Assembly (NCBI RefSeq): GCF_014192515.1
Contig: NZ_JACHYB010000002.1
Coordinates: 558,001-622,000, forward strand
Direction: 5' to 3'
Length of the DNA: 64,000 bases
Source: Microbacter margulisiae
Lineage (GTDB): Bacteria > Bacteroidota > Bacteroidia > Bacteroidales > Paludibacteraceae
How positions within the stretch are numbered: position 1 is the stretch's first letter; each line of letters starts with the position of its first letter. Positions 13 to 19,137 of this stretch are shown here, piece after piece. A program made the translations under genes and the position numbers. Under the pieces are notes generated by a model, which did no database searches, was not told where the DNA came from, and was given only the letters and a program-made list of their open reading frames with translations.

Positions 13-1158
13 TTAAACATTCAAGGGTTTTGCCCCAATACCTGGTTGATTACTTAAGGTGATCTTACCATCAATTACCTTCATACCTGTAAAACAATCA
101 TTAGCCAACAACAAATTTCCATCCAGATCAGCATAATCCATTTTTGGAGCCAACTGGGCAGCAGCAGATATGGCACATGAGGTCTCCGTCATACACCCAA
201 TCATCAGCTTCATCCCAAAGGTTTCGGCCATACTGATCATTTTATTGGCTTCACGCATTCCGGTGCATTTCATCAACTTAATATTAATCCCATTAAAAAC
301 ATCCTTCAAACGGGGAATATCCTCCAATCGTTGACACGATTCGTCAGCAATGGTAGGCAACGGACTTTGTTCCGTAAGCCATGCCATATCGTCCAAATCA
401 TGTTTTGGCATCGGCTGTTCCACAAACTCCACATTACGTTCGGATAACCATTCGATCATCTTCAAAGCATAATGCTTGTCTTTCCAGCCTTGATTGGCGT
501 CAACACGAATTGGTTTATTCGTCACGGAACGAATAGTGTTAATCAGCATTTTATCCGTCACCTCATCGACTCCGAGTTTTACTTTCAGCACCTTATACGG
601 AGCCGCTTCAAGTGTTTTTTGTTTTACTACCGCTTCAGTATCAATACCAATAGTGAAAGTAGTTACAGGAGCTTTTGCAGCCGTATAACCCCAAATGGCA
701 TGCCAGGGCTGCCCCATCAACTTTCCGACCAAATCATGCAATGCAATATCAACTGAGGCTTTAGCAGCGGTATTATTAATAGCAATATCGTCGACATAAG
801 CCAAAATATCATCCAATTCAAAAGGATTACTAAACTGTTGCAGATTCACTTTCTGCAAAAAAGCCATGACAGAAGCCTGTGATTCACCCAAATACGGAGG
901 CATAGCGGCTTCTCCGTAACCTGTAATTCCATCATAAGTCACCTGTGTAAGTACAATAGGAGTAGTTGTACGCGTGTATCCCGAGATGGTAAAGGGATGC
1001 TTTAAAATCGCATCAAAAGGACGAAAGGTGAGTTGCATTTTCCCATTTCCACCCATCCGGGTTGATTTTCCTTTTTGTGCAAACATAGCGGTTGGATTTA
1101 TAAGTGATGCGGCTGTTAAAAGAGCCGATGATTTAATGAAAGATCTTCTGGTAATCAT
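13..1158 (-). CDS. Tat-exported dipeptide epimerase (L-Ala-D/L-Glu epimerase-like, enolase superfamily)
   Basis: This 381-residue protein fits the muconate-lactonizing/dipeptide epimerase branch of the enolase superfamily, whose members racemise the second residue of dipeptides such as L-Ala-D-Glu from murein. The N-terminal cap is followed by a barrel with the expected catalytic parts: the K-x-K pair in LKVKLG, metal-binding Asp in VDANQGW, Glu in VEQP, Asp in ADES, and the opposing Lys in NIKLMKCTG. The first ~27 residues are a twin-arginine signal (TRRSFIK followed by a hydrophobic stretch and AMFAQ), so the enzyme should work in the periplasm. It is the last gene of the row that contains an NlpC/P60 peptidase and a GH9 protein, which supports a role in handling peptides from peptidoglycan. 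Substrate specificity is inferred. Confidence 0.85.
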   Translation of the reverse strand: MITRRSFIKSSALLTAASLINPTAMFAQKGKSTRMGGNGKMQLTFRPFDAILKHPFTISGYTRTTTPIVLTQVTYDGITGYGEAAMPPYLGESQASVMAFLQKVNLQQFSNPFELDDILAYVDDIAINNTAAKASVDIALHDLVGKLMGQPWHAIWGYTAAKAPVTTFTIGIDTEAVVKQKTLEAAPYKVLKVKLGVDEVTDKMLINTIRSVTNKPIRVDANQGWKDKHYALKMIEWLSERNVEFVEQPMPKHDLDDMAWLTEQSPLPTIADESCQRLEDIPRLKDVFNGINIKLMKCTGMREANKMISMAETFGMKLMIGCMTETSCAISAAAQLAPKMDYADLDGNLLLANDCFTGMKVIDGKITLSNQPGIGAKPLNV

Positions 1159-1487
1159 AACTATTTTTTTTAATGAATGTCTTTTTTAATATCCCCATTG
1201 CAATAGAACAAGGCATTGCCCGACAGATTGAAGGTTTGAAAGTTCGAGGGTTCGAGGTTATAACTTCATTAATTTCAAGGCATTTTGTTATTCAGTAATT
1301 CGGTCATTCAGTTATTAACATTGGGGACAGCACTTGCACATTATCTTCCGGCAACTATGGTAGTCTTTGTTTGCTTGACAGATTATCACTTCCCTTGTGT
1401 TGAAGGGAAGTGCCCGAAGAGGGATGGGTTAGATTTATCATAAAATATTCATTTCAAATATTTTGCTATTTCAACTGTCAATTGAAT
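1159..1487. other. Gene-free stretch with a hairpin between epimerase and peptidase genes
   Basis: No coding sequence is apparent in these 329 bases. A perfect 10-bp stem (CACTTCCCTT / AAGGGAAGTG, 1387-1412) with a 6-nt loop lies near the peptidase end. It has no clear T-run, so it may be an mRNA-stabilising hairpin or part of a dispersed intergenic element rather than a terminator. Short direct repeats (GTTCGAGG, ATTCAGT) occur at 1230-1320. Confidence 0.4.
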
Positions 1488-2444
1488 CTACTCTGCCAGA
1501 TAAAAAGGATGCCTCGCTATGGAGACAATACCCGAATCCTTGTCGATTCGCGTCAACAACCGTCTGGCACACAGCAAGCGTTTTGTATTATACGCATCAT
1601 ATTTGGGCGATGATGGAGCTAAACTACTGATATGTACCATTCCCGATGAGTGAATAAACTCACCGTTTCCGATATAAAGTCCCACATGTGATACATGTCG
1701 TTTTCCATTCTTTTTTGAACCAAAAAAGAGTAAATCGCCGGGACGCAATTCAGAAAATCCTTTGGAAATATTTACGCTATCACCCGTCATAGCCTGTTGC
1801 CATGCATCACGCCGCAACACAACACCATTCAGGAAGAAACAGGTTTTGGTAAATCCACTGCAATCCATTCCTTTAATAGATGTACCACCCCACAAATATG
1901 GGAAACCGACAAAACATTTGGCGGTAGCAATAATATTACCTGCAGTTGGCTGGCGCGAAGCAATCCATTGATCAAATGGCACTGCATAGCTTTTTTGCAA
2001 AAAAGCTATCCGCCCGTCAGGCAGTAAAAGATGGAAATAATCACCCCGTTCTCCGGTCAATCGTATGACATCGCCCCAAACAACATCTGAAACGACAGGA
2101 GAATTTTCCGAAGGTTCGGAATGCAATACGGTAAAATAATGAGTCACAATCACTTTTCGGGAAGCATTCCACTCCTTATATTGATCCAATGACATAGGTT
2201 GTACACTTTCTGATGTCGCCCAGGCAACATAACCATCAGGCGTCATTAACTGTTTCCATCCGTGATCTGTTTTCAGGATATGAACCGGAGTTCCCATCAA
2301 AGCCTGCGTTCCCATTTCAGCAGCTACTGAAGGATTCTGACGCATATTAATGACCGACTGGGTAACAATGGCATACTCTACAGGTTGACCATGAGCAGCC
2401 ATAATCCAGCTTAACAACAAACACAAGGCAAAAATGTTTTTCAT
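1488..2444 (-). CDS. Secreted SH3-NlpC/P60 cysteine peptidase (gamma-D-glutamyl-L-diamino acid endopeptidase type)
   Basis: The 318-residue protein has a signal peptide (residues 1-19), two bacterial SH3-like modules (about 22-85 and 95-155) and a C-terminal NlpC/P60 domain (about 165-300). The catalytic residues are visible: Cys195 in MDCSGF, His253 in HVSHVGLY and His265 in GEFIHSSG. The layout matches the YkfC group, which cuts the gamma-D-Glu to diamino acid bond of murein peptides with a free N-terminal L-Ala. Such cleavage yields L-Ala-D-Glu, the substrate of the epimerase encoded next to it. The gene lies 92 bases downstream of the GH9 fusion gene on the same strand and is likely co-transcribed with it. 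Confidence 0.88.
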   Translation of the reverse strand: MKNIFALCLLLSWIMAAHGQPVEYAIVTQSVINMRQNPSVAAEMGTQALMGTPVHILKTDHGWKQLMTPDGYVAWATSESVQPMSLDQYKEWNASRKVIVTHYFTVLHSEPSENSPVVSDVVWGDVIRLTGERGDYFHLLLPDGRIAFLQKSYAVPFDQWIASRQPTAGNIIATAKCFVGFPYLWGGTSIKGMDCSGFTKTCFFLNGVVLRRDAWQQAMTGDSVNISKGFSELRPGDLLFFGSKKNGKRHVSHVGLYIGNGEFIHSSGMVHISSLAPSSPKYDAYNTKRLLCARRLLTRIDKDSGIVSIARHPFYLAE

Positions 2445-2536
2445 ACGGTAATCGTTTGGTTTTTGAATGTCATACGGAACTCACATGCTGATAACCCTGA
2501 ACGGAAACAATTACATGTTGATCCCTTGTAAAAATA

Positions 2537-5020
2537 TTAATTATGTCCTAATAAGGCATTTATTGGCACAAAATGATATCCTTTTTGCTGTAACGTCGTA
2601 ATAAGTTGATCCAGTTTATCATAAAATTTATCTGTCCGGCGTTTATCCGTTCCCAAATGGGTGAGTAATAAAAAGCCATTTAATGAATATTTCCCTTCAT
2701 AGGCAAGTATATTCTTCATAATCTGACTGGAGGAGCGATACGATTGCATGTCGGGAGTCGTATAATCGGCATTTGAAGTAGTGCCGGGAGTAAAATCAAT
2801 CAGCTCCAGTCCTAACTCTTTAGCCCATATACTGATTTTTGTATTATAATATTCATATGCCGGTAGAAAATAATAGGGTGTATCTATTTTTAATCCGGCC
2901 TCTTGCATGGCATGGTAATTATTCATGATATCTTGTTCAAATACTTCAGGCGTTACCAGAGTTGAATCCCGTTTCGTCCAATCGGCATACAATAAATGTT
3001 TATCAGAATGGATTCCCATGTAATTGCCATCTTTTTGCAGTTGTCTTGCTAAAAGAGGATGAGCACGATAAAAATCACCGGTCAGGAAAAAAGCTCCATG
3101 AATATTATTCTTTTTCAATACTTTCTGTATCGTTGAATATCCGTCATAAAATTCATGCCCTGTAAAAACCAGCGTGATATTTTTTTGTGTCGTATCCCCA
3201 CGGATAATTCCTCCCTCGAAAACACGATATTTCGAATCCGCATTTTGAGCAGCAGGATTTGCAAGGGAAGAGAGGTAATAACACAAAGAAGCAGTTCCAT
3301 CCATTGTCGGTTCATTCGTCGAGTAATCCGCCCAATCGTCGTGATACACAACCCGGGATGATTGAAAAGCAGCATAAGGATCAGCATATGTCAGGTGCAC
3401 TCCTCTAAGATTATGAAAAATAGGAGCATAAATAGGCCCGTCGACCAGACCCCCGTCAATATGATAATGATACACTGCCGACAAAGCTGAATGAGGATGT
3501 TTCGGATAATCTCCGTCAGCCGGTAACCCGATAACCATACATTTCCCCCATGGATTACAGCCAAACAACCAGTCACGCAATGCCATTTCCATCTCCTCAA
3601 AAGTAGTATCTCCCGTCAGTTGTCTGTAGAGATGGCATTGAGTAACGGCTGCCACAACCAGGTTATTAGAGCACCAGATGAACGGAATGCCGTTGATAAA
3701 CGGGTCATCTCCTGCACGGTCCCTGATTCGTTCAAGCCCGCTACGCATATTGCGGATAAATTCCGCACTGGTCCGTTTATTCGACTGTTGTAATGCTAAA
3801 AAATAATGTCCTAAGTTGATAAAAGGATACCATTGGTAGTGATGAGCAGAGTCAGCTCCCATCCACGGAGTTACCGGTTCCATCCGGCCATAATCGACAG
3901 CGTTTTTCAAATACCCCGGTTGTTTATTCGTATCATAAAGCTGAACGGCAGCCAATTCCATATCATCTACCCAGTTATCTTCTTCGTAAAAATAAGGAGA
4001 GACACAAGGCGCTGTCTGACACACACCCGGATTTGCCGCCCCTTTTCGATAGGCATACACGGCTTTTTGTTTCAACAAAGCGGCGAATTGCGGATAATAA
4101 GGAGCCAATAGCTTAGCACCCAAAGAATATGCTGAAGAATACTTGCCAAGCGTCGAGGCTAATCCTCTCGACCGATTTTTATATTTATACAATCCTTCCG
4201 GTGTCCCTAAGCAACCATATACGGGACGCGCCCTTCCTTTTCCCCAGCCATAATCCACAGAATCTTCCGTTGGCAGCCGGAACGAAGCATGATCTCTGTC
4301 GTCGGCAACCTGATTATAATAGGTATCGCTATCTGGATTCATCCGTACCAGCCAGTCCAGTCCCCATTTAGCTTCATCCAGAATATCAGGGATGCCGTTG
4401 CTGTGAGGATTACCATTGGCGTCAAAATGATCGGCAAACGCTTTTGGATTCTGCTGATAAGCAAACAGCATTTCAAAAACTGCATTTGCCGAAGTAGTCA
4501 CATATTTCAAATAATCCGAAGCATCATGCCAGCCGCCATACACAGGTATTGTCTCCCCGTTATGTTTTGGATTATAAATCACTACTCCATCATAGCGATG
4601 GCAGGAATCCTTCAAAAGAGGATTGTATCCACACTGTTGTTCCCGCATATAGCGTAGCAGAAAATCAGCGCTCCCATCATACACATCTTCTCCAATAAGA
4701 AAAGATGGAGAGACAACATTCCCAACTTTAATATAATATCTTCCTGCTTCCTTGACAGGAGAAAAATTTAGGCGTGCAGCAGCTATAAAAGGCTCTTTTG
4801 CTTTTTTGCAAGAGATATCCCGGCCAACATATACCGTCTTGCCTGTCATTTCATTCACAACCTGAAACTTATCAGGATGTACATTCTCTTTACTCAACCA
4901 AACGGCTACCTTGATATCTTGCGGCAAATATCCCATTTGATTCACTCTGATCCATTGCTGGGCGTTCAATATCAAGCCCCCAATACTCAATAATAATATA
5001 AGCCAATATCTATTTTTCAT
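2537..5020 (-). CDS. GH9 glycoside hydrolase fused to a polysaccharide deacetylase-like domain
   Basis: This 827-residue secreted protein starts with a signal peptide (1-20) and an Ig-like CelD_N domain (about 24-110, with VNQMGYLP). A GH9 (alpha/alpha)6 catalytic domain follows (about 120-590). The GH9 Asp motif is present as GGWHDASDYLKY and the acid Glu region as YSTNEPTMDG. Residues from about 610 to the end resemble a NodB/CE4 deacetylase, with AFFLTGDFYR and the metal-binding HSDKH. The first CE4 motif, normally TFDDG, reads VFTGHEFYDG, so the metal site or activity may differ. GH9 enzymes act on beta-glucans and some on glucosamine or chitin oligosaccharides; the deacetylase partner and the peptidase and epimerase neighbours favour an amino-sugar substrate, which is inference. 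Confidence 0.85.
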   Translation of the reverse strand: MKNRYWLILLLSIGGLILNAQQWIRVNQMGYLPQDIKVAVWLSKENVHPDKFQVVNEMTGKTVYVGRDISCKKAKEPFIAAARLNFSPVKEAGRYYIKVGNVVSPSFLIGEDVYDGSADFLLRYMREQQCGYNPLLKDSCHRYDGVVIYNPKHNGETIPVYGGWHDASDYLKYVTTSANAVFEMLFAYQQNPKAFADHFDANGNPHSNGIPDILDEAKWGLDWLVRMNPDSDTYYNQVADDRDHASFRLPTEDSVDYGWGKGRARPVYGCLGTPEGLYKYKNRSRGLASTLGKYSSAYSLGAKLLAPYYPQFAALLKQKAVYAYRKGAANPGVCQTAPCVSPYFYEEDNWVDDMELAAVQLYDTNKQPGYLKNAVDYGRMEPVTPWMGADSAHHYQWYPFINLGHYFLALQQSNKRTSAEFIRNMRSGLERIRDRAGDDPFINGIPFIWCSNNLVVAAVTQCHLYRQLTGDTTFEEMEMALRDWLFGCNPWGKCMVIGLPADGDYPKHPHSALSAVYHYHIDGGLVDGPIYAPIFHNLRGVHLTYADPYAAFQSSRVVYHDDWADYSTNEPTMDGTASLCYYLSSLANPAAQNADSKYRVFEGGIIRGDTTQKNITLVFTGHEFYDGYSTIQKVLKKNNIHGAFFLTGDFYRAHPLLARQLQKDGNYMGIHSDKHLLYADWTKRDSTLVTPEVFEQDIMNNYHAMQEAGLKIDTPYYFLPAYEYYNTKISIWAKELGLELIDFTPGTTSNADYTTPDMQSYRSSSQIMKNILAYEGKYSLNGFLLLTHLGTDKRRTDKFYDKLDQLITTLQQKGYHFVPINALLGHN

Positions 5021-5059
5021 TATTACAGCATATTAACCGGAGACAGAGTGTGAAAAACC

Positions 5060-6538
5060 TCATTCTGTCACCGCATTGATCGATTGAATAGCAGGTTTAC
5101 GCAAAAGCCACATGCCAATGAAGGTAAATAATCCATTGACAATTAACAACGTGAATCCAAAACCAAAATGGAAGAAAAGATTACTCAACGTATCCAGCAA
5201 GAAACAAAATGCAGGTGACAAAATGGCCACGAAAGGCATCCAGCGGTCACGCACCTGATAACGCGTCAAAATCCCAAAAAAGAAAAATCCCAATAACGGA
5301 CCGTATGTGTATGAAGCCAATTGATAAACAAGATTAATCACAGCCTCATCATTCAAAACATAAAACACAAGAATAAGCAAAAAGAAAACAATAGAATAAA
5401 TCGCATGGGTGCGATACCGTATCGTTATTTTACGTTTTTCCGTCAAATCGGTTCGTCTGTTAAATCCGACAAAATCAACACACCATGAAGTAGTTAACGA
5501 GGTTAAAGCTCCACCTGCACTGGGATATGATGACGATACCAGACCTATTAAAAAGATGACGCCGGCAACTACTCCTAAATAAGAGGTAGCTATTGCTGGG
5601 AATATCTGATCTACTGCCGAAATACCCATTGCCGCCATTCCACCATGTTGCTTCACATAAAGCGCCAGAACAGCGCCCAATGTCAAAAACAAAAGATTAA
5701 CAATCACAATGGTAAAGCTTGTAGTCATCATGTTTTTCTGAGAGTCTTTTACTGTCTTACAACTCAGATTTTTCTGCATCATTTCCTGATCCAGTCCCGT
5801 CATCACGATGGTAACAAAAATGCCGCTAACAAACTGCTTAACAAAATAGGTACTGTGATCCCAATTAAAATCAAACCAGGAAGAGTAGTGGCTTGACGTC
5901 ACGGCAGCAATCATACCATTCAGATTCCACCCCATTTGTTTTGCAATCACCACAACAGCAACAATCACAGCCAGAATCATAAAGGTAGTTTGCAGCATAT
6001 CAGTCCAAACAATAGTTTTGACACCTCCCTTCAATGTATAGAGATATATCAGCACCATAAAAATCAGAGCAACCACCCAAAAAGGAATCGTTCCTGCAGG
6101 CAACAATCCATGCAGTACAAAAACAACCAGATAGATACGTACGGCAGCACCCAAAATCCTTGATAGCAAGAAAAACGAAGCGCCTGTTTTATAGGTAAAA
6201 AATCCAAACCGGGATTCCAGATAGGAATAGATAGAGACCAGATTCATGCGGTAATAAAGCGGCAATAATACAAAGGCTACGACAACATATCCCACTACAA
6301 ATCCCAACACCATTGGCATATAAAAAAAGGATTGATTCATTACATTGCCGGGAACCGAGATCATCGTAACGCCCGATAAAGAAGTCCCCACCATACCATA
6401 AGCCACCACAAACCATGGAGATTTTCGGTTTCCCTGAAAATAAGAACTATTATCAGCCTTCCGGGATGTGTACCAGGAAATAATAAAAAATAGAATCGTA
6501 TAAACGACAAAAACGGTCAGAAGTAAAGCCAACGACAT
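5060..6538 (-). CDS. Sodium:solute symporter (SSS family)
   Basis: A 492-residue polytopic inner-membrane protein with about 13 hydrophobic segments and no signal peptide. The region IISWYTSRKADNSSYFQGNRKSPWFVVAYGMVG and the later SSYPSAGGALTSLTTSWCVDF follow the SSS pattern, with the conserved sodium-site Ser/Thr cluster in the last part. It lies 40 bases upstream of the GH9 fusion gene and probably begins a four-gene operon with it, the peptidase and the epimerase. It would bring the released sugar, amino acid or dipeptide into the cytoplasm; the exact substrate cannot be read from sequence. Confidence 0.88.
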   Translation of the reverse strand: MSLALLLTVFVVYTILFFIISWYTSRKADNSSYFQGNRKSPWFVVAYGMVGTSLSGVTMISVPGNVMNQSFFYMPMVLGFVVGYVVVAFVLLPLYYRMNLVSIYSYLESRFGFFTYKTGASFFLLSRILGAAVRIYLVVFVLHGLLPAGTIPFWVVALIFMVLIYLYTLKGGVKTIVWTDMLQTTFMILAVIVAVVVIAKQMGWNLNGMIAAVTSSHYSSWFDFNWDHSTYFVKQFVSGIFVTIVMTGLDQEMMQKNLSCKTVKDSQKNMMTTSFTIVIVNLLFLTLGAVLALYVKQHGGMAAMGISAVDQIFPAIATSYLGVVAGVIFLIGLVSSSYPSAGGALTSLTTSWCVDFVGFNRRTDLTEKRKITIRYRTHAIYSIVFFLLILVFYVLNDEAVINLVYQLASYTYGPLLGFFFFGILTRYQVRDRWMPFVAILSPAFCFLLDTLSNLFFHFGFGFTLLIVNGLFTFIGMWLLRKPAIQSINAVTE

Positions 6539-6565
6539 AAAAAAAGGTTATTAAACAGATATTCG

Positions 6566-6573
6566 CAAAGGTA
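6566..6573 (-). promoter_or_regulatory. Bacteroidota -7 promoter element for the symporter operon
   Basis: On the minus strand the bases read TACCTTTG, a match to the TAnnTTTG -7 consensus of Bacteroidota housekeeping sigma factor. It lies 28 bases upstream of the symporter ATG. A TTTG -33 box is not evident at the expected distance, so the assignment is moderate. Confidence 0.5.
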
Positions 6574-6636
6574 CGGAATATCCTTTTTTAGGAAGATGAA
6601 ATTCCTGCCTGGTTTTCACAAAAGAGCAGAAATAAA

Positions 6637-6688
6637 CAGCGGAACAATTTCATATTGCTCTTCAGCAACATTATCCGTTGTTCCGCTG
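6637..6688 (-). terminator. Hairpin terminator after the first susCD pair
   Basis: An 11-bp perfect stem (CAGCGGAACAA / TTGTTCCGCTG) encloses a 30-nt loop, followed on the minus strand by a short T-rich run (TTTATTTCT). It lies 63 bases past the SusD stop and separates the susCD transcript from the symporter operon. Confidence 0.55.
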
Positions 6689-6750
6689 AATAATTGATCG
6701 ATACTACAAGGTACTTACTACTTATAAACTACCAATATGTTCAGAGAATA

Positions 6751-8481
6751 CTACCATCCCGGATTTTGAGGGAATGTATAGCCCAGATTTTGATATAAAT
6801 TCAATTGTCCTGTCGGAATTGGATCTAAATAATTTTTCGGGGTTGTAATCACACGCTTGGCAGCAGTCGTCGTCGAATAAGGTAAAATATATCCTGAAGC
6901 ATCTTGACCACCAGGAGAACCAGCAGTTCCTGCAGGAGCTTTAGCTCCTTTGAATATATCTGGTTTGACAGACGGATTTAGATAGGACAATTTGCCCCAA
7001 CGACGTAAATCCCAATAGCGGAATCCATCCATCATTAATTCTACCCGACGTTCGCGACGTACTTCCCATAACAGTGGAGATACATCGGGATCTCTTTTAG
7101 GATCATCTGGAATATTCGACACTTCTAGGGAAGCGACTCCCGCACGTGCTCTTAATTTATTAATGGTATTATCAGCAACTGTTTGATCAAAATCACCTAA
7201 TTCTACACAAGCCTCTGCTTCATTTAACAAAATCTCTGGTAACCAGAATATTGGCGCATCAGTTGGATTGTTTGGTGCCAAAAGCTCTGTTTTGGTCAAA
7301 GTAGAATTATCAAAACGAGAAATCCGATATCCTGTAGTTGATGTAAAACCACTGCTATTAGGCTTACTGATATAGCAGAGAGTACTATCTACACTTTCAA
7401 TCAAACGTTTATCCCGATTCTTCAATGTAGTTTGTCCTATAGAAAGTGTTGTAGGATTAGGAACGTCACCTTTATAAAGCGGAGACAACCCAATTGGCAT
7501 TCCATCTGTGCATAAGAAAGATTCAACAGCATCTTTTGTCAAGCCTGAAATGATAGTACTACTATTACAGTACCCTACCACTGAATGGGTAACAATGCCA
7601 TCTATATACAAACGATATAATAATGTTTCCTTATTTCCCGTCAAATCAAGAGAACTATAAACTGTCCTATAATCTGAATTTAATGCATAGTTAGAACTAC
7701 TCATCACAGCTTCAGAGGCAGTTTTACATTGATTTAAATATTCAGTAGCTCTCGTGTTATCCCCAAGTTGATATTTGCTATACGTACCTTCATATAAACA
7801 AATTCTTGATTTCAACGCGTTAGCTACATCTTGATTCACTGTATTTGCACCTGTATAAGTATCAGCAACGGATTTCGGATAAAGTAAGGCAACAGCTCTA
7901 TTTAGGTCATTCAAAACACTATCCATGACAGTATTACGCGGAGTACGGGTACCCCATATCAAAGCTGTATCAGAAACCTGATCCAAATATTTGTTAATAT
8001 AAGGCACATCTCCATAACGACGGACTAAATCAAAATATTCCATTGCTCTAAAGAAATAAGCAATCCCGCGGTAATGATTCTTAGCTGCGTCACTAATGGG
8101 AACAGAATTAATTCTGGTTAATAACAAATTAGCTAAACGAATATACGTATAAGGAGTACTCCACGTCGTTGAAGATGCAGGTGCAGCCGTTGGAAAAATA
8201 TCAATAGCATTGTTTGCCTGATCATCGTTAAATGTAGTAAAATAAAAATCAGATTCACTTCCAGATCCTCCGTTTGAGCTAATACTCGAAGTTGCTCCAG
8301 TTCCAAAACCATCAAACAAAGAATAAAATCCCATACAGAAAGTCTTTACATTACTTTCACTTGTCCAATAGTTTGTATCGGTAAATTGCGTTAGGGGAGG
8401 TTTATCAAGCCATGAATTACATGCGGTAACTAAAAGCAATGTAACCAACGCAACAAATATTTTTTTAATTATATGCTTCAT
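6751..8481 (-). CDS. SusD/RagB-family outer-membrane nutrient-binding lipoprotein
   Basis: The 576-residue protein has a lipoprotein signal with the acylated Cys at position 21 (LLLVTACNSW). The SusD signature region NSWLDKPPLTQFTDTNYWTS is followed by TPR-like helices. The C-terminal part has RRERRVELMMDGFRYWDLRRW, a hallmark of the family, and ends with the usual QNPGW. SusD proteins sit on top of their SusC barrel and hand the substrate to it. The gene starts 21 bases after the partner susC, so they form one transcript. It is the first of two SusD proteins in this locus and is about 95 residues shorter than the other. Confidence 0.93.
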   Translation of the reverse strand: MKHIIKKIFVALVTLLLVTACNSWLDKPPLTQFTDTNYWTSESNVKTFCMGFYSLFDGFGTGATSSISSNGGSGSESDFYFTTFNDDQANNAIDIFPTAAPASSTTWSTPYTYIRLANLLLTRINSVPISDAAKNHYRGIAYFFRAMEYFDLVRRYGDVPYINKYLDQVSDTALIWGTRTPRNTVMDSVLNDLNRAVALLYPKSVADTYTGANTVNQDVANALKSRICLYEGTYSKYQLGDNTRATEYLNQCKTASEAVMSSSNYALNSDYRTVYSSLDLTGNKETLLYRLYIDGIVTHSVVGYCNSSTIISGLTKDAVESFLCTDGMPIGLSPLYKGDVPNPTTLSIGQTTLKNRDKRLIESVDSTLCYISKPNSSGFTSTTGYRISRFDNSTLTKTELLAPNNPTDAPIFWLPEILLNEAEACVELGDFDQTVADNTINKLRARAGVASLEVSNIPDDPKRDPDVSPLLWEVRRERRVELMMDGFRYWDLRRWGKLSYLNPSVKPDIFKGAKAPAGTAGSPGGQDASGYILPYSTTTAAKRVITTPKNYLDPIPTGQLNLYQNLGYTFPQNPGW

Positions 8482-8502
8482 AATAATAGTAATAATTAGG
8501 GG

Positions 8503-11500: not shown

Positions 11501-11772
11501 ACGATTTCTTCTTTTGACGTATAACCCATAAATGAAAATTGCAACTTATCCTTCGATGTTGCCGAGAGTGAATAAAGCCCATTGACATCAGTTATTGTGC
11601 CGGTAGAAGTACCGACAATTTTTACCGATGCACCAATAATAGGTTGATTATTGGTATCAACCACCTTTCCTTTAATAATTCTTGTTTGTGCATACCCGTT
11701 TGTTATCACAAAAAATGATAACAAGACAGCAATACCCAAACGAATCCATTGTTGTTGAAAAGTTCTCATCAT
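8503..11772 (-). CDS. SusC/RagA-family TonB-dependent outer-membrane transporter (pair 1)
   Basis: The frame is open to 11880, but I place the start at 11772 (1089 residues) because the paralogue at 15,775-19,137 starts with the same MMR...QQQWIR sequence, giving a normal signal peptide ending in NGYAQ. Order of parts: carboxypeptidase-D-like domain (about 30-105, GKVVDTNNQPIIGASV), SusC signature VVVVGYGTQRKENLTGAVS, TonB plug (PLILVDGV, ISVLKDAASTSIFGARAADGVILITTK), then a 22-strand barrel ending in a terminal Phe. It has no STN domain, so signalling to an anti-sigma factor is not expected. It imports the ligand gathered by the SusD encoded just after it. Confidence 0.93.
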   Translation of the reverse strand: MMRTFQQQWIRLGIAVLLSFFVITNGYAQTRIIKGKVVDTNNQPIIGASVKIVGTSTGTITDVNGLYSLSATSKDKLQFSFMGYTSKEEIVGNRSVINVILAESNVQMQDVVVVGYGTQRKENLTGAVSTVDVSKSLSAKPFTDVAKGLQGNVPGLTITYGGGSITETPSINIRGLVSINGGNTPLILVDGVVVPDITMVNPDDIASISVLKDAASTSIFGARAADGVILITTKSGQKNSKFKIDYSDNFSWGTPTQLPQFPNDPVAEINMEVNAFARQGSGFDMFGMQAPQLIAGIQKWEANYSKNRTSNQMVKGQDFDIVNGTAYFYRIWDPTKIMYQTMPQENHNLQFSGGTDKLSYFVSGTYSYQEGILKIHPDKLSQYNLMAGINADVNNWLNLDVKTTNRQYNYDYPYSYQDYFYYMWRWGAYFPYGQYTDPNSGQSYYFRNVNGYLANANNCTYRQNTQNINIAATIKLTPNLKFRSEFSYMNINANRHEIGGQISLWDFWSGGLALNSTLPSASYNETDYTSSFTTQLTSNSYLTYDKRFGLHSIKAMVGLNAEKGTFLQQFSKGYGLMNNSMGEIALVTNSTPPVITSTSSTYGPAHTWWSVAGYFGRINYDFNNKYLVELDGRYDGSSNFPVSGRWAFFPSGSLGWRVTEEPFAKGIKKVVTDWKIRGSYGTIGNQNVGTTNLFLPVMTTAQNSWIVGSAKATYTGMPQTVASTLTWERINTLDFGTDARFLDNNLGLTFDWFQRDNVGMISSSTTLPQVFGTSASKTNVGNLRTNGWEVALDYHYQLHNGIQLYANVSLNNYITKITKWGGNPSNSLTTYYSGMTYGDIWGFQTVGYFKDAADVANSPSQVKLQSGSFVFGPGDVKYADLNKDGKIDGGSLTLADHGDLKKIGNCTPQYQYSFRLGGSWKGFDLDAYFQGVGKRDYWATGSIAIPGYTGSSIFLQHQMDYWTSSNVNATYPNPYQGNSSSNLSGEAFWSGNTSSTSGNNFYPQTKYLLNLAYLRLKTLTIGYTLPKTVLAKAGINKFRIYVEGMNLLTFAQNKIPIDPETTDASSTGSWYGATTPFTKTYSFGVQMSF
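11377..11772 (-). repeat. susC 5' direct repeat, copy 1
   Basis: The first ~132 codons of this susC are nearly the same as those of the second susC (18,742-19,137). By my residue-by-residue comparison 119 of 132 amino acids agree, and long DNA stretches are unchanged, while the rest of the two genes is clearly diverged. The copies are in the same orientation, 7365 bp apart. Confidence 0.85.
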
Positions 11773-11880
11773 AACCTTGGGGATTAAAAAATAAAGAAAT
11801 GATTTAATTACGCCTTTTTCATGGAATAGAAGATTTGAGGCGGACAAAACTTCCAGCTTTCTATTAAATTTTAAGATCAT

Positions 11881-12537: not shown

Positions 12538-13596
12538 TTATTTCATACGATTTATTTCATTTTCAACAGCTTCCATTAGCGAACTATTATCATTGGTATC
12601 CATGCTAATCTCCCAAAACATAACACCACCCAGCCCCTGGGAAAACGAATATTGTATTTTACGTTGGACGGTAGTCATTCCATTGTAATAAATCCAAAAA
12701 GGAGCAGAATGTGTAGTAGTAATCACTAGCGCAGAGTCAGACATACAATCTCCTCCCTGATCTATAATATCAGCGTATGACAATGTATTCCCAGTCATTG
12801 AAATTCCTGAAGGGCGTCCATAGAAAGGAATTCCAGCAACAAATTTTGTTCGTGCCAAATTACGCACGGTTATCCAATAATTAAAACTGGCCAACAACAT
12901 AGAATATGGACTATGTTGCACATAAGATTGCGTAGTACTATAATCATCATAAATCATAACATTAAACCAATCTACATCATCAAACACATCAGGTAAAATT
13001 CCATTTGAAACTGCCCCGACATATAAACCGCTTGTAATAGCCATAGTCAAAAGATATGGGTTACCTTTATGGCAAAAATCGCTCAATTGCTTCATCAAGA
13101 GTGCATTATAATAACCGGAACCGTCAGAAACAGAAGGATATTCCCAGTCATTATCAATGCCATCCAAATTGTATTTACTGATATCTTCTTTTAATGCGTT
13201 TACAAACAGATCACGGGTTGATTTTTGCGAAGCCATTAACACAAAATATTGCTGGCTCCCATTAAAGCTCAAAAGAACTTTGACTCCCAGAGCATGACAT
13301 CGACTAACCAATGTTTGCAACTTATCCGGTTGATCAATTTCCGGCAATAATGACGAATTAATGGTTGCAAAAGCGTATATCACAACATCAAGCTGTCTTA
13401 GTTTCGAATCGGGTATTGCATCAATATTTCGATATGATGGAATATATCCTACCACTTGAAATTTCGAATTGACAGGAGCTTTATAAAATGTCACAGTAGA
13501 ACTTTCATCAATTTGGTCAGGAGTATCATCTCTTTTACTACAAGACGAAAATATCACAATAAATAGAAGAAACAATATAAAAAGCTTATTCTTCAT
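12538..13596 (-). CDS. GH18 family lipoprotein (chitinase or endo-beta-N-acetylglucosaminidase type)
   Basis: The 352-residue protein has a lipoprotein signal (acylated Cys19 in FSSCSKR) and a single GH18 barrel. The catalytic DxxDxDxE motif is complete as LDGIDNDWEYP, with Glu152 the acid. Other barrel landmarks are VVGYIPSYR, LLSFNGS, DWFNVMIYDDY, FVAGIPFYGRP and GGVMFWEISMD. GH18 enzymes cut beta-1,4 bonds next to GlcNAc by substrate-assisted catalysis. No carbohydrate-binding module is attached. It is the third gene after susC-2 and susD-2 and would cut GlcNAc-containing polymers at the cell surface for import. Chitin, N-glycan and peptidoglycan cannot be told apart from the motif. Confidence 0.88.
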   Translation of the reverse strand: MKNKLFILFLLFIVIFSSCSKRDDTPDQIDESSTVTFYKAPVNSKFQVVGYIPSYRNIDAIPDSKLRQLDVVIYAFATINSSLLPEIDQPDKLQTLVSRCHALGVKVLLSFNGSQQYFVLMASQKSTRDLFVNALKEDISKYNLDGIDNDWEYPSVSDGSGYYNALLMKQLSDFCHKGNPYLLTMAITSGLYVGAVSNGILPDVFDDVDWFNVMIYDDYSTTQSYVQHSPYSMLLASFNYWITVRNLARTKFVAGIPFYGRPSGISMTGNTLSYADIIDQGGDCMSDSALVITTTHSAPFWIYYNGMTTVQRKIQYSFSQGLGGVMFWEISMDTNDNSSLMEAVENEINRMK

Positions 13597-13643
13597 AGCA
13601 CCATAAGATTAACAAGCCGGGTTAGAAACATAAAATAAGACAA

Positions 13644-13692
13644 AGCAGGACTACGCATGATAAAATTATTCGATTTAATGCATAGTCCTGCT
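13644..13692 (-). terminator. Hairpin between susD-2 and the GH18 gene
   Basis: The arms AGCAGGACTA and TAGTCCTGCT pair perfectly, with further pairing inside (GCAT/ATGC). On the minus strand it is followed by TTTGTCTTATTTTA. It may be a leaky terminator or a processing hairpin that sets the GH18 level below that of susCD. Confidence 0.5.
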
Positions 13693-13720
13693 CAATAAAT
13701 GCTGCTCAAAGTATAATAAA

Positions 13721-15736
13721 CTACCTATTAGCCCAACCTGGATTTTGTGTTAAATTATTAGTATAACCGGCATTCTGGTAAAGTGTAAATTGATCCTTCC
13801 CAATTGGAGACAAGTAAACTTCCAATCCTGACATGGTTCCACTACCATACCCGTTTGAATTAAATGACCTTGAAGTAATCACTGTAGGAGATGTTGAATA
13901 TATAATATAACCCGAGGCTGGACCTCCACCTGCGCCTGGGGTTCCATTGCTATCAAGCCATGGCGTAGCAACCGTGTTATCTACGTTATTATTAGCAGCC
14001 AGCAAAGGCTTCAATTTATACATCAGAGAAGAAGCGTTTCCTGTTTTTGGATCCAATCCGATACTCATGTCAATCCATGCTCCTCTATTGACTGTCAGCT
14101 GAGGCTGACGAGTATAATCCATATAATGCAATTTTCCCCAGCGTTTTAAGTCATCAAAGCGAAAACCTTCTAACGCCAATTCAATACGACGTTCCCGTCT
14201 AATTTCCCATATCATAGGAGGAACTTCGTAGCTTGTCCCATCAGGATTAATATCTCTATCCGGATCATTAATCAATATCCCGTTGACAGCAGGATACCCA
14301 CCTATAGATTGTAGATGAGGCATATTTATCCCTGACCGATCGCGTATTTTATTAATTGAAATATCTAAATCAGATTGTGAAATCGGCACAGGAACATTAC
14401 CGGAAATATTTGTATTTGCAATTTCAGCACAGGCTTCTGCATAGTTCAACAAAACCTCATCATAACAAATAATAGGAGCGCTAGTTATATTTGTGTTCAA
14501 CACTGCCGTATAATAATCATTATCATTTAAAAACTTCCGAATAGCCATACCAGTAAGAGCATAATCAGCATCTCCATTTGCTCCTGGAAAAGCTGCCGCT
14601 TGTAACCTTAATGAATCAGGACAAATCGTTGAACCTATTCGCGGATCTAGCAATGACGTGCCAGTTTTGAATTTTCTATAACTAAAAGAAGAAGAAGCCG
14701 GATCCAGATTTATCGTTTGTGATTGCTTTTGAGGCAATCCATCTTTACAGAGGAAAGCATCCAGTAAATTTTTAGATATCCCTACTTGAGCATTTTGATA
14801 GGCTACATAAGATTCTACCGAATGAGAAACTATTCCACTTGCATACGAACGATACATAATCACTTCCGAGTTACCTGCCAGATTGGTTGAAACAAATAGT
14901 GACCGCAAAGGATCTCCACCTCCGGATACTACTGTATTATTGATACTGTAGCGTCCGCTATTCATGACATCTAACGCATATTCCTTAGCTTTTTGATAGT
15001 ATCGTAAAGCTTTGCTTTTATCATATCCAAAAACAGATGGATAATATCTAAATACTGATGCTTCATATAACATAATTCTTGAAGCAAAGGCAGCTACAAC
15101 ATCTTTGGTAATTGTAGTACCTTGAGGATAGCCAAGGGTCACCTCGCTAATACGAGTATGGGCAATCGCATAATCAAAATCGGCTATCATACTATCAACA
15201 ACTAATGAACGAGGATCGCGGGGTTTATAAAGTAGAGCCGTTTGGCTCTGATCCACTACAGTATTATAGTAAGGACAATCCCCATACGATTTAATAATGA
15301 GAGCGTATGCTAAAGCTCTGAAAAATCTACCCACTCCTAACCAGTGGTTACGTGTAGAATCATCAATGTTAGTAGTTTGGTTAACATTAGCGATAAAAAT
15401 ATTAGCTTTACGAACCCATGTATAATTCCAGCCTCCGGTATTAGGAACAGTTGTCGCAAATATATTACTTCCCCCTGCATAGTCGTCACTGGTATTGGTA
15501 CCACCCAAAGCCTCATAATATGGGCCATACGTATAATCCTGCCCATAACCAAAAAAATAGTTACCAAAAACTCCTGTTGATGTATTCCCCGAAAGGAATC
15601 CCCAGGAAAAAGCCCTGACGCTAGCTTCCGATGTCCAATATTGAGAATTGGATACACTGGTTATAGGCCCTTTATCCAAGTAATTAGTACAACTAACTAC
15701 AAAACATGCCACAATGGCAAAATATATCATTTTCAT
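13721..15736 (-). CDS. SusD/RagB-family outer-membrane nutrient-binding lipoprotein (pair 2)
   Basis: A 671-residue lipoprotein with acylated Cys16 (FVVSCTNYLD) and the SusD N-terminal pattern YLDKGPITSVSNSQYWTSE. The family signature IRRERRIELALEGFRFDDLKRW is near residue 510, and the C-terminus has QNPGW. It is longer than the usual 500-600 residues because of insertions in the C-terminal half, around RQPQLTVNRGAWIDMSIGL and the Gly-rich stretch after it. The gene begins 38 bases after susC-2, and the pair should form one transport complex in the outer membrane. Confidence 0.93.
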   Translation of the reverse strand: MKMIYFAIVACFVVSCTNYLDKGPITSVSNSQYWTSEASVRAFSWGFLSGNTSTGVFGNYFFGYGQDYTYGPYYEALGGTNTSDDYAGGSNIFATTVPNTGGWNYTWVRKANIFIANVNQTTNIDDSTRNHWLGVGRFFRALAYALIIKSYGDCPYYNTVVDQSQTALLYKPRDPRSLVVDSMIADFDYAIAHTRISEVTLGYPQGTTITKDVVAAFASRIMLYEASVFRYYPSVFGYDKSKALRYYQKAKEYALDVMNSGRYSINNTVVSGGGDPLRSLFVSTNLAGNSEVIMYRSYASGIVSHSVESYVAYQNAQVGISKNLLDAFLCKDGLPQKQSQTINLDPASSSFSYRKFKTGTSLLDPRIGSTICPDSLRLQAAAFPGANGDADYALTGMAIRKFLNDNDYYTAVLNTNITSAPIICYDEVLLNYAEACAEIANTNISGNVPVPISQSDLDISINKIRDRSGINMPHLQSIGGYPAVNGILINDPDRDINPDGTSYEVPPMIWEIRRERRIELALEGFRFDDLKRWGKLHYMDYTRQPQLTVNRGAWIDMSIGLDPKTGNASSLMYKLKPLLAANNNVDNTVATPWLDSNGTPGAGGGPASGYIIYSTSPTVITSRSFNSNGYGSGTMSGLEVYLSPIGKDQFTLYQNAGYTNNLTQNPGWANR

Positions 15737-15774
15737 TTTGAAGTATTTTAAGTATTAAACAAAGAGCATTTCAA

Positions 15775-18700
15775 TTAAAATTTTACTTGAAGCCCAGCAG
15801 AATAAGCCTTTACAAAAGGATAGCTACGTCCATAAGCAATTGCATCACCCACACTACCGGTCTCAGGATCAATCGGGGCTGTAACATGATCAAAAGTCAA
15901 CAAATTATCGATGCTAATGTATATTCTAAGATTTTGAATAAATGCTTTAGAAATCATCGATTTTGGGAAAGAATAGCCAACCGCAAGATTTTTCAAACGT
16001 AGATATGCAAGATTTTGCATATATTTATCACTCACTTGAAAATTCCCGGTTGAAGACGAACCACTGTTGGATGGACGGGGATAAACAGGATCTTTTACTT
16101 GTGATACAAAATAATCAGATTTTGATGGATCAGTAACATTAGGTGTATACCAATAATTTGTTTGTGTCGTTAACAAGCTTGGACTATTACCGGTATCAAA
16201 CCCGGGAAGAGTAGCTGATGATGCTATCCAATTTTTACAGCTGCCAACACCTTGAAAAAACATATTAAGATCGAACCCTTTCCAAGATGCTCCAATCGTA
16301 AAATTATACTGATCGCGAGGAGTATTATATCCTAGCAATGACATATCTCCATGATTAGCAACAGTACCATCCCCAGCATCAATTACACCATCCCCATTCA
16401 AATCCTTATATTTAACATCCCCAGGGCCGAAAGTTCCTAACTTCGACTGAGTCGCAATGCCTGGTTTAAGTTGATATTGTCCGCTTGATACCGCGATAGC
16501 ATTATTGGCATCCCGTTGAAAATCATCAACATTAAAAAGTCTGTCAAACTTATATCCATATACAGCTCCGATACGTTGGCCAACCCGATAGCCCGTATAG
16601 GAAGTTGAGTAAACCCATTTGGTTATAGTCTCAATATAATCAGATAAACCAGCAGATAGATTAATTGTCAGGCCATTATTAAAAATATGTCGATAATTTA
16701 ATTGAAGTTCCCAACCTTTTGTCGTCAATGCTCCAAAATTCTGATAGGCAGCAGTTGTCCCAAAAGTCAATGGCACAGGGGATCCCGCTGTTATCATACC
16801 TGAAGTGACACGTTGATACCAATCATATGTTATATTCAAATCATTGATTAATTGTAAGTCAGCGCCAAAATCTGCCGTAGTCACTTTCTCCCAAGTTAAC
16901 GAAGTGGATACAGTGGTAGGTGTACCAAAAAAGGTTTGATTTGCGCCATTTACATACCATAATGAACCTCCAACATTTACGTTAGTCCCATAATATGGAG
17001 TTAAGGTAGATATAAATGAATTTGCAGCAACATCTTGATTTCCAAGCATTCCATAAGAGGCGCGAAGTTTTCCCGAAGTTAATATCTTCGTAATCCCACG
17101 CATAAAAGGTTCTTGGGTAAAACGCCAGCCTAAAGATCCTGACGGGAAAACAGCCCAACGATTTGCAGCAGGAAATAAAGAAGAGCCATCATATCTCATA
17201 TCATATTCCAATAGATATTTATCATCATATGAATAATTGATTCTACCAAAAGCACCTGCAGTTGCCCACTGCGTTGGCGAACTAGTCAGATAGCCAGCAC
17301 CAATAACACCGACGGTTTGAGTGCCGGAGGCCAATCCAATATTAGCTTGAGAGTTTATTAATAGATTAGCTTTCTTTGATATGTAACCATTCCTTATAAA
17401 ATCTTCAGTATTGACACCAGCCGTAACTTTTAAATCATGTTTATCAATTTTCTTTTTGTAGGTAAAATATCCATTGAACGCTCTTGTTCTCTCATACATG
17501 AAATCTTCTTCTATATAATTGGTATTGGTACTAACAATTCCATAATTAAACCCACTTGGAGTAGATGAATTGGGAGTGCCCCATGTGTTCAACGCATAAA
17601 AATCACCTCCTCGGACAGTAGCTCTTGTATCTTGATTGGAAAAAGTATAGTCAGCATCAAAAGTTAATCCCTCTAATATCTTTGCAGTGGCAGCTATTGT
17701 CACACGAGATAGTATAGCATCCGTAGTGTTATCATTTGCTTGTCGAACCGCATTGACTGCATCTTTTACGGGTTGCCCATTCATATAACCGTAAGGAGAG
17801 AAACTTGACCATCTATACATATAATAAAAAGCATTGTACCTCGAGGCAGTATTAAGAAGATTAAATGGCGTTGTATAATCAGAATTTGAAAGCATTGAAT
17901 TTAATCTAAGTTCCAGCCACTTATTGACAACCCCATTAATATTAGCCGTCAAATTATATCTTTTATAACTATCAGGATTGACCTTTAACAAACCAGATTG
18001 ATTCAAATAAGCTCCACTTAAATTATAAGAAATTTTTTCACCTCCTCCTGAAACAGAAATATTATGTTGACTCATGGGGGTATATCTCTTCAAGTATAAA
18101 TGAGTAGGATCATAAGTTCTATAACCGTAAAACTTTCCTCCAATGATATCATAATCTCTACCTCTAACAATATCCTCTCCCAGATTCTTATTACCATATT
18201 GCTTCAACCAGTCTTTCATAGTCTGAATAGTAGAAGCATTTGCATATACAAACCCACCATTTGCGTCAGCAGGATTAGTTGGATTTGCTCTTTGATTAAC
18301 AGCTAATAAAAAGGCTGCATTTGTAGGAGCATCTGCAATATTCATAGTTATGGTTGGAGTATTCTCTGAAAAATTAACAGAATAATCTACAACAGCCCGT
18401 TGGTTAAACTTTCCTTGCTTTGTTGTGATTAAAATAACCCCCCATGTGGCCCGTGCCCCATAAATTGCACTTGAAGACGCATCCTTTAAGACAGATATGC
18501 TTGCAATATCATTAGGATTGATCATCATGAGATTTGGTACCTCAACCCCATCAACAAGAATAAGTGGAGACGCCGCCCCGTTTGATGAAGCTCCATTCCC
18601 TAACGATCCCACACTACCTCTTAATTTAATAGACGGATTAACACCAAGATCTCCCGTCGGCGCCGTAATTGTTAGCCCTGGAGCCACACCTTCCAAGCCA

Positions 18701-19137
18701 CGAGAAACATCTGTAATAGGACGGGCATCTAAAATCTTAGTATCTACAGTGGCCACAGCCCCTGTCAAGTTTGCTTTTCGTTGGGTACCGTAGCCCACTA
18801 CTACGATATCTTGCATTTGCACGTTAGATTCTTCTAAAATCACATTAATCACAGAACGATTGCCTACAACTTCTTCTTTTGAAGTATAACCCATAAATGA
18901 AAATTGCAACTTATCCTTCGATGTTGCCGAGAGTGAATAAAGCCCGTTGACATCGGTTATAGTGCCGGTAGAAGTACCGACAATTTTTACCGATGCACCA
19001 ATAATAGGCTGATTTTTTACATCAACCACTTTCCCTTTAACGGTTCTTGTTTGTGCATACCCGTTTGCTATCACAAAAAATGATAACAAAACAGCAATAC
19101 CCACACGAATCCATTGTTGTTGAAGAATTCTCATCAT
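15775..19137 (-). CDS. SusC/RagA-family TonB-dependent outer-membrane transporter (pair 2)
   Basis: The 1120-residue protein has a signal peptide (to about residue 29, ANGYAQ), a carboxypeptidase-D-like domain (GKVVDVKNQPIIGASV), the SusC box IVVVGYGTQRKANLTGAV, the plug (PLILVDGVEVP, ISVLKDASSSAIYGARATWGVILITTK) and a barrel ending in LQVKF. The first ~132 residues are almost the same as in the other susC of the window, but the barrels differ strongly, which points to a different ligand. It opens a susC-susD-GH18 unit. Confidence 0.93.
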   Translation of the reverse strand: MMRILQQQWIRVGIAVLLSFFVIANGYAQTRTVKGKVVDVKNQPIIGASVKIVGTSTGTITDVNGLYSLSATSKDKLQFSFMGYTSKEEVVGNRSVINVILEESNVQMQDIVVVGYGTQRKANLTGAVATVDTKILDARPITDVSRGLEGVAPGLTITAPTGDLGVNPSIKLRGSVGSLGNGASSNGAASPLILVDGVEVPNLMMINPNDIASISVLKDASSSAIYGARATWGVILITTKQGKFNQRAVVDYSVNFSENTPTITMNIADAPTNAAFLLAVNQRANPTNPADANGGFVYANASTIQTMKDWLKQYGNKNLGEDIVRGRDYDIIGGKFYGYRTYDPTHLYLKRYTPMSQHNISVSGGGEKISYNLSGAYLNQSGLLKVNPDSYKRYNLTANINGVVNKWLELRLNSMLSNSDYTTPFNLLNTASRYNAFYYMYRWSSFSPYGYMNGQPVKDAVNAVRQANDNTTDAILSRVTIAATAKILEGLTFDADYTFSNQDTRATVRGGDFYALNTWGTPNSSTPSGFNYGIVSTNTNYIEEDFMYERTRAFNGYFTYKKKIDKHDLKVTAGVNTEDFIRNGYISKKANLLINSQANIGLASGTQTVGVIGAGYLTSSPTQWATAGAFGRINYSYDDKYLLEYDMRYDGSSLFPAANRWAVFPSGSLGWRFTQEPFMRGITKILTSGKLRASYGMLGNQDVAANSFISTLTPYYGTNVNVGGSLWYVNGANQTFFGTPTTVSTSLTWEKVTTADFGADLQLINDLNITYDWYQRVTSGMITAGSPVPLTFGTTAAYQNFGALTTKGWELQLNYRHIFNNGLTINLSAGLSDYIETITKWVYSTSYTGYRVGQRIGAVYGYKFDRLFNVDDFQRDANNAIAVSSGQYQLKPGIATQSKLGTFGPGDVKYKDLNGDGVIDAGDGTVANHGDMSLLGYNTPRDQYNFTIGASWKGFDLNMFFQGVGSCKNWIASSATLPGFDTGNSPSLLTTQTNYWYTPNVTDPSKSDYFVSQVKDPVYPRPSNSGSSSTGNFQVSDKYMQNLAYLRLKNLAVGYSFPKSMISKAFIQNLRIYISIDNLLTFDHVTAPIDPETGSVGDAIAYGRSYPFVKAYSAGLQVKF
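18742..19137 (-). repeat. susC 5' direct repeat, copy 2
   Basis: This is the partner of the repeat at 11,377-11,772, in the same orientation. Similarity stops soon after the LTGAV codons. Upstream, the promoter core is also alike in the two copies. Confidence 0.85.

Follow-up and report, generated by a model that had tools for sequence, protein, structure and literature searches.

A candidate polysaccharide utilization locus for peptidoglycan fragments in Microbacter margulisiae

The window analysed here is a stretch of 64,000 nucleotides from Microbacter margulisiae (Bacteroidota; NCBI RefSeq assembly GCF_014192515.1), bases 558001-622000 of contig C2 (NZ_JACHYB010000002.1; 1.31 Mb) in a genome of 3.56 Mb on two contigs. 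Its minus strand carries part of a gene cluster that we read, with a probability of about 0.84, as a polysaccharide utilization locus (PUL) for peptidoglycan (murein) fragments. Gene content, gene order, conservation and active-site residues, on which this reading is built, are direct observations on the sequence. An earlier note had described nine genes at positions 13..19137 and had proposed a locus for the uptake and breakdown of cell-wall fragments. All nine open reading frames (ORFs) were recovered on the minus strand at these positions, and ORF, Pfam and NCBIfam analyses returned the domains named for them. The extent of ~19 kb, on the other hand, was too small. Position 13 is the window edge and not the end of the locus; the next same-strand ORF begins 6 bp past the stop of the last gene in the window, a dipeptide epimerase, and genes of the same kind extend ~16 kb beyond the edge. 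The whole locus comprises 17 same-strand genes over ~35.2 kb. The peptidoglycan proposal is supported and was strengthened by an exo-beta-N-acetylmuramidase (NamZ), a YfeW/PBP4B-like hydrolase and a Golvesin_C protein beyond the window, by YkfC markers in the peptidase and, in relatives, by MurQ, MurK-like kinases, an AmpG-like permease and GHL10 in or against the locus. Our verdict is a real, conserved murein PUL that is novel in arrangement, not in kind.

Conservation within the genus was assessed in the genome itself and in four relatives with sufficiently long contigs. All five loci contain, in a single same-strand run, the sodium/solute symporter (SSS), a fusion of glycoside hydrolase (GH) family 9 with a polysaccharide deacetylase-like domain (GH9/PDA), the NlpC/P60 peptidase, the epimerase, the Golvesin protein, NamZ, GH20, a phosphoesterase and a protein with GH3-C-like and beta-lactamase parts. 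SusC and a SusD are present in all five as well, and the second-type SusD partners of the four relatives belong to PF12771. Since the gene order is kept in relatives, the genes have not come together by chance. A GHL10 protein was additionally found in the run of G001 (258.6 bits) and of G007 (92.6% identical); E. coli DigH, an enzyme cleaving peptidoglycan glycan free of peptides, belongs to this family. Directly upstream of the locus and on the same strand, G007 carries two BadF-type kinases, MurQ, a GT2 protein, a DUF4922 protein, an AmpG-like permease of the major facilitator superfamily (MFS) and a second NamZ, which are 51-81% identical to a recycling cluster on contig C1 of our genome. 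The AmpG-like and NamZ end of this cluster also lies directly upstream in G002 and G003, and the permease and second NamZ abut the locus in three of the four relatives; in the 40 kb examined for G001 they were not seen. In M. margulisiae itself the cluster (L292, C1:1923001-1942000) consists of two BadF-type MurK-like kinases, MurQ (326.7 bits against a cut-off of 302), an AmpG-like MFS permease and NamZ. A Tannerella-type MurTKQ/AmpG cluster is therefore not part of the locus itself, these genes being on the other contig. Between NamZ and SusC of G003 (L046:3304-4479), we observed a protein matching heparan-glucosaminide N-acetyltransferase just below the cut-off (20.6 against 22.0 bits), which could acetylate glucosamine freed from deacetylated wall.

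Outside the genus, the SusD lineage was used to follow the locus. Relatives of the second SusD protein of the window (SusD2) at E<=1e-40 occur in 31 of 396 genomes of the class, giving 51 rows from other genomes. The 20 kb around 40 of these were examined, namely the 20 closest (one row inside another stretch omitted) and the next 20 (two omitted); eight weaker rows were left out of the neighbour comparison. At least one of NamZ, the Golvesin protein, GH9 or the beta-lactamase protein was found beside 11 of the 20 closest relatives, compared to 1 of the next 20 (Fisher 0.0006). The same difference was observed for NamZ (8/20 versus 0/20; Fisher 0.0016), SSS homologues (6/20 versus 0/20; Fisher 0.010) and MurQ (5/20, in L224, L227, L228, L229 and L235, versus 0/20), and GHL10 was found beside four of the closest and two of the next. 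A midpoint-rooted SusD tree (n=53) was built from the 40 regions, three named loci picked for lying by the epimerase, the two SusD proteins of the window and eight further SusD matches out of the 22 others in the genome. Murein-type neighbours are present for 17 rows, among them both proteins of the window, and all 17 fall into a single clade of 22 rows (support 95/97); the murein-neighbour label requires 6 changes on the tree compared to 14.6 in shuffles, none of 500 being as low. The other five members of the clade have GHL10 (L231, L241), a phosphoesterase (L223, L246) or none of these (L222) as neighbours. SusD1 and SusD2 of the window lie in different parts of the clade, SusD1 in a second sublineage.

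A second survey followed the epimerase through named relatives in the phylum; these are the best 80 of 581 matches and not a random sample. The nearest, a Paludibacter metagenome-assembled genome and Bacteroidales UBA1309, are both 78% identical. NlpC/P60 adjoins the epimerase in 69 of the 80. In Mucilaginibacter straminoryzae (L166), a locus of ~18 kb combines a GH3-beta-lactamase protein, MurQ, SSS, NlpC, epimerase, NamZ, SusC, SusD, GHL10 and a phosphoesterase, and shorter versions were found in Hoylesella oralis (L168) and Mariniphaga (L173). In these comparisons NamZ, SSS, MurQ and the GH3/beta-lactamase protein go with the SusD clade, while for the NlpC-epimerase pair SusC was mostly not seen in the stretches examined.

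The NlpC/P60 protein (1488..2444; Pfam NLPC_P60 and SH3, signal peptide) is assigned as a gamma-D-Glu-diamino acid endopeptidase of the YkfC/dipeptidyl peptidase VI (DPP VI) type, and its nearest solved structures are the DPP VI entries 3npf (276 bits) and 3pvq/4r0k (264 bits). In an alignment to 3h41, using the residues given in passages of PMC2954226 and a chain-to-protein numbering counted in this analysis, every YkfC marker checked was kept: Tyr226, Trp228, Asp237-Cys238-Ser239, Asp256, His291, His303 and Tyr118 of the SH3b domain. The Cys-His-His triad and the residues typical of the YkfC/DPP VI subfamily are thus present. A YkfC-type enzyme needs an N-terminal L-Ala, and therefore an amidase cleaving between N-acetylmuramic acid (MurNAc) and L-Ala must act before it. 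The epimerase (13..1158; Pfam MR_MLE_N and MR_MLE_C) belongs to the MR_MLE family, with 3iji/3ijl/3ijq as nearest solved structure (486 bits), which we take to be the B. thetaiotaomicron enzyme BT_1313. K192, K194, D220, E247, D272, K294 and D344-x-D346 are the same in all 16 relatives aligned and presumably represent the enolase-superfamily catalytic set KxK, D, E, D, K. Its twin-arginine (Tat) signal scores just below the Pfam TAT_signal cut-off (19.8 versus 22.7 bits), and the RR pair is likewise invariant in all 16. It is a candidate L-Ala-D/L-Glu-type dipeptide epimerase; because no NCBIfam epimerase equivalog reaches its cut-off (PRK15129, 163 bits versus 343; DgcA, 217 versus 400), the scores leave the exact dipeptide preference open.

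Directly after the epimerase, on the same strand, lies the Golvesin_C protein (1019 aa; C2:554947-558006), for which no amidase match was obtained at the default level. At E<=1, however, Amidase_3 is matched by 15 of 17 of its relatives (best 9.5e-5) and by the copy of our locus, with an E of 0.079. Four full-length relatives (L285-L288; 1034-1036 aa, 43-44% identity) pass the Amidase_3 cut-off of 27 bits with 37.1-39.8 bits, and three others fall just under it. The four are a second, full-length Golvesin protein sited elsewhere in four genus relatives. From these matches, the Golvesin_C protein is probably a MurNAc-L-Ala amidase. It is followed on the same strand by the 616-aa protein, in which a weak GH3_C stretch is joined to a beta-lactamase fold with S280-x-x-K283, Y382 and H563TG. 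The best NCBIfam match of this fold is PBP4B/YfeW (PRK03642; 1.8e-46, 159 bits versus a cut-off of 385). In E. coli, the gene for YfeW lies with those for MurQ and MurP, and B. subtilis AmiE shares the beta-lactamase-like serine hydrolase fold. The 616-aa protein may accordingly be named a YfeW/PBP4B-like serine hydrolase and putative amidase. In its Mucilaginibacter relative (L166; 1010 aa), a NagZ-like GH3 with the catalytic barrel stands in front of the PBP4B-like part. This full-length form occurs in L165, L166, L224, L225 and L228, with no GH20 seen in the stretches examined, and the short form and GH20 occur together in all five genus loci. A rule that the short form goes with GH20 was nevertheless dropped: L139 has the short form and no GH20 in 21 kb. 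Next comes NamZ (C2:551528-552706, same strand), with NamZ_N (256 bits) and NamZ_C (105 bits) both over the Pfam cut-off and 4jja as nearest structure (533 bits). After it, again on the same strand, follow GH20, a GH2 protein with an exo-glucosaminidase Ig domain, an MFS permease, a ROK kinase and, as the last of the 17 genes, a metallophosphoesterase/PQQ protein ending at C2:541909.

The GH9/PDA fusion (2537..5020; Pfam CelD_N, GH9, PDA) is the member of the locus with the most tentative role. The GH9 catalytic residues D166, D169 and E570 are present (GGWHDASDY, STNEP), the deacetylase-like domain scores over the Pfam cut-off, and the AlphaFold model (mean predicted local distance difference test, pLDDT, 80) shows GH9 and peptidoglycan deacetylase folds. 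The GH9 part is closest to the endoglucanases 3x17, J30 and BoGH9A, and its fold is less like that of the GH9 glucosaminidase PBPRA0520. The fusion is present in eight of eight genus genomes; in G008 it is a single ORF of 885 aa. Across the class, GH9 was found in 24 of 392 genomes. Because it is fused with the deacetylase in 11 of them, and a deacetylase-like ORF is adjacent in 8 of the 13 with GH9 alone (including L229 and L249), the two parts appear from sequence to act together. The earlier note had counted the fusion among the parts of such loci, which does not hold generally: it lies inside a murein-type locus in five of 23 other genomes (L227, L229, L234, L235, L249). Near GH9/PDA, no epimerase was found in any of 17 regions from other genera of the family, where the neighbours are mostly housekeeping genes. 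With these 17 regions and the 18 remaining genomes, the fusion was rejected as a murein-specific marker. In G066 (L058:5947-14533), GH9/PDA adjoins a NAGPA phosphodiester-glycosidase protein and is one ORF away from an Amidase_3 protein. Both of these proteins carry tails of the type IX secretion system, and the three may possibly form a secreted wall-lysis set.

Assuming that the locus serves murein, the following order of events can be proposed. Wall fragments would be caught or trimmed at the surface by the GH18 lipoprotein and the two SusD lipoproteins and would be imported by the two SusC channels with TonB energy. In the periplasm they would be dismantled from their ends. The Amidase_3-like Golvesin_C protein and/or the YfeW-like serine hydrolase, judged by homology, would split the peptide from MurNAc, and GH20 and NamZ would alternate along the sugar chain, the former taking off N-acetylglucosamine (GlcNAc) and the latter MurNAc. 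More speculatively, GH9/deacetylase and GH2 might act on further or N-deacetylated amino sugars. From the freed peptide with its N-terminal L-Ala, the YkfC-type NlpC/P60 enzyme would release L-Ala-D-Glu, which the Tat-exported, periplasmic epimerase would convert to L-Ala-L-Glu, an ordinary dipeptide usable by ordinary peptidases. The order amidase, NlpC/P60, epimerase is placed in this way because of the YkfC requirement. The SSS and MFS symporters would bring the sugars inward, and in the cytoplasm the ROK kinase, together with the MurK-like kinases and MurQ of the other contig, would feed them into GlcNAc-6-P metabolism. Signal peptides are present on most enzymes of the locus, which would place these in the periplasm.

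Several observations weigh against the murein PUL. No SusC was seen in the examined stretch for 63 of the 80 named NlpC-epimerase loci, and the density of SusC genes alone could nearly give the 17 that have one. The NlpC-epimerase pair was rejected as a marker of SusCD on this count, and the prospect raised in the earlier note, that the symporter-GH9-peptidase-epimerase block would be found separate from susCD in most relatives, is thereby answered in two ways: in all five genus loci the block stays with SusCD, while across the phylum the NlpC-epimerase pair mostly stands without SusC. GH9/deacetylase lies outside murein-type loci in 18 of the 23 other genomes, outside meaning that no NamZ, Golvesin protein, SusC/SusD or beta-lactamase protein was found within 20 kb (one has SSS). 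Its deacetylase-like domain keeps HSDKH, but the motif-1 Asp is replaced (VFTGHEFYDG), which is not the CE4 pattern. The Golvesin_C copy of the locus reaches only 13.4 bits on Amidase_3 (PF01520). Alignment of its family to Amidase_3 with hhalign, whole and trimmed, failed, a control stretch outscoring the test stretch; its AlphaFold model (mean pLDDT 60.9) is poor in the amidase region, and Foldseek matches it to fn3 and Golvesin-type domains. The 616-aa protein lacks the GH3 catalytic barrel expected of a NagZ. GH18 occurs in only two of the five genus loci, and GH2, MFS and ROK were found in our locus alone. Furthermore, GH18, GH20 and GH2 equally suit chitin or N-glycans, and the substrate of the locus and its import by SusCD are deduced from sequence comparisons.

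These points have to be set against the other explanations. Recovery of the organism's own wall, in which the enzymes salvage periplasmic turnover fragments and SusCD recaptures lost ones with no feeding on other bacteria, would agree with the signal peptides and with the Tannerella-like recycling cluster that is linked to the locus in relatives. However, the presence of two SusCD pairs and of a GH18 lipoprotein of surface type points to a substrate from outside, and a separate recycling cluster is already present on the other contig, so that own-wall recycling as the main role seems unlikely. The locus could also be a PUL for chitin or GlcNAc-rich glycoproteins (N-glycans), with SusCD, GH18, GH20 and GH2 for the glycan, standing beside a block of NlpC, epimerase and NamZ for the own wall. 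GH18, GH20 and the exo-glucosaminidase Ig domain of GH2 are typical of such use, and the scarcity of SusC beside the NlpC-epimerase pair fits. We consider this improbable: in other families and orders, where GH18 is lacking, NamZ, SSS and MurQ lie by SusD of the same clade, the murein set is found in every genus locus and GH18 is not, and in most of the relatives the recycling genes abut SusCD. That GH9/PDA marks a PUL for a cellulose-like beta-glucan is suggested by the endoglucanase-like GH9. This idea was rejected as highly improbable, as there is no other glucan enzyme in the locus, every other partner is an amino-sugar or murein enzyme, and the deacetylase with which GH9 travels would be senseless for an unacetylated glucan.

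The murein PUL therefore remains the reading that we prefer. A wider claim is doubtful, though worth stating: that one SusC/SusD clade is specialized in carrying muropeptides across the outer membrane of Bacteroidia and characterizes a type of murein PUL (SusCD with NamZ, SSS and MurQ/GH3-amidase) found in several orders, and that the GH9-deacetylase pair present in some of these loci is at the same time a glycosidase module acting on peptidoglycan, which would be the first case of this role in GH9.

The remaining features of the locus are those of a PUL, with tandem susC-susD genes, co-directed GH18, GH9, NamZ, GH20 and GH2, and the importers SSS and MFS. Upstream of SusC1 lie the housekeeping genes RsgA and DnaG. 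The two TonB-dependent outer-membrane transporters, SusC1 (15775..19137; TIGR04056, 782 bits) and SusC2 (8503..11880; 799 bits), are both over the cut-off and are separated by 38 and 21 bp from the surface glycan-binding lipoproteins SusD1 (13721..15736; PF07980) and SusD2 (6751..8481; PF07980, PF14322), respectively. A near-identical short inverted repeat with tail lies at like places in SusC2 (11642-11662) and SusC1 (19007-19027), as expected from an old duplication. The GH18 lipoprotein (12538..13596; PF00704) has a lipoprotein signal ending FSSC-SKRDD (CSKRDD start) and an intact catalytic motif D145xxD148xD150xE152. The SSS symporter (5060..6538; PF00474), whose TIGR00813 match is below cut-off, is a candidate inner-membrane importer of murein sugar. 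Because the widest intergenic gap, before SusC2, measures 657 bp, the locus is likely transcribed as more than one transcript. A promoter scan gave 85 promoters, not above shuffles (73.4, sd 8.9), and 22 terminator-like sites were found compared to 14.5 in shuffles (sd 4.0). After the locus, on the same strand and ~16-18 kb below window base 1 (C2:539729-541689; L040:9729-11689), lie a BlaI-type repressor (PF03965, 91.7 bits) and a BlaR1-like M56 protein with a TonB-plug-like stretch. This pair, which was not observed next to the phosphoesterase in the regions from the four genus relatives, may regulate the locus in response to wall stress. A Mutator-family transposase (L040:8336-9550) bounds the far end.

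Comparison with known systems places the locus between several of them. SusCD systems have been described for glycans of the diet and of the host. Chitin and N-glycan PULs of Bacteroidota likewise combine SusCD with GH18 and GH20, whereas our locus has NamZ, NlpC/P60, the epimerase and MurQ-linked relatives. B. subtilis has an exolytic NagZ-AmiE-NamZ muropeptide pathway. The locus resembles it in having NamZ, a serine-hydrolase-fold protein and a hexosaminidase, and Mucilaginibacter fuses the NagZ-like and PBP4B-like parts; in contrast, the locus couples the set to SusCD, has GH20 and no GH3 barrel, and its likeness to AmiE would be one of fold. The nine-gene recycling unit of Tannerella forsythia (Tanf_08345 to Tanf_08385) with AmpG, MurT, MurK and MurQ (PMC7670621, PMC10465942) is a murein-scavenging set of the same phylum, to which the C1 cluster and its counterparts abutting the locus in relatives correspond, but the passages of these papers covered here describe no SusCD, NlpC/P60-epimerase pair or GH9/PDA within it. 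YkfB-YkfC neighbours are noted in B. thetaiotaomicron and Gramella forsetii in the consulted part of PMC2954226. Our pair agrees with these and with the Bacillus pair in adjacency and markers, and differs in that both enzymes are exported (signal peptide, Tat motif) and are set in a 35-kb locus with SusCD. RmNag3 of Rhodothermus marinus, described in sections of PMC6987092 as a GH3-beta-lactamase fusion without an adjacent GH gene, is of the same fusion type as the full-length relatives, whereas the 616-aa protein keeps the GH3 C-domain and the beta-lactamase-like domain only. In line with the earlier note, which had called the combination not a standard described type, no described peptidoglycan PUL was found in the open-access literature, and subscription papers or preprints, which lie outside that search, may differ. 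The excerpts considered of PMC10877868, PMC12915301 and PMC11382707 describe no such locus, and the last of these states that the recycling of peptidoglycan has yet to be explored in the great majority of gut commensals.

The locus supplies concrete objects for experiments, namely SusD binding, NamZ, the Golvesin-amidase candidate and the GH9-deacetylase pair. The passage of intact wall fragments through the outer membrane of Bacteroidota is, to our knowledge, an open question. Related clusters in distant Bacteroidota may point to a little-described use of known sugar-uptake machinery. If the SusD clade is indeed a muropeptide importer, its sequence would serve as a marker of bacteria living on the walls of other bacteria in sediment, gut and mouth, and thereby of those that determine the pool of immune-active muropeptides.

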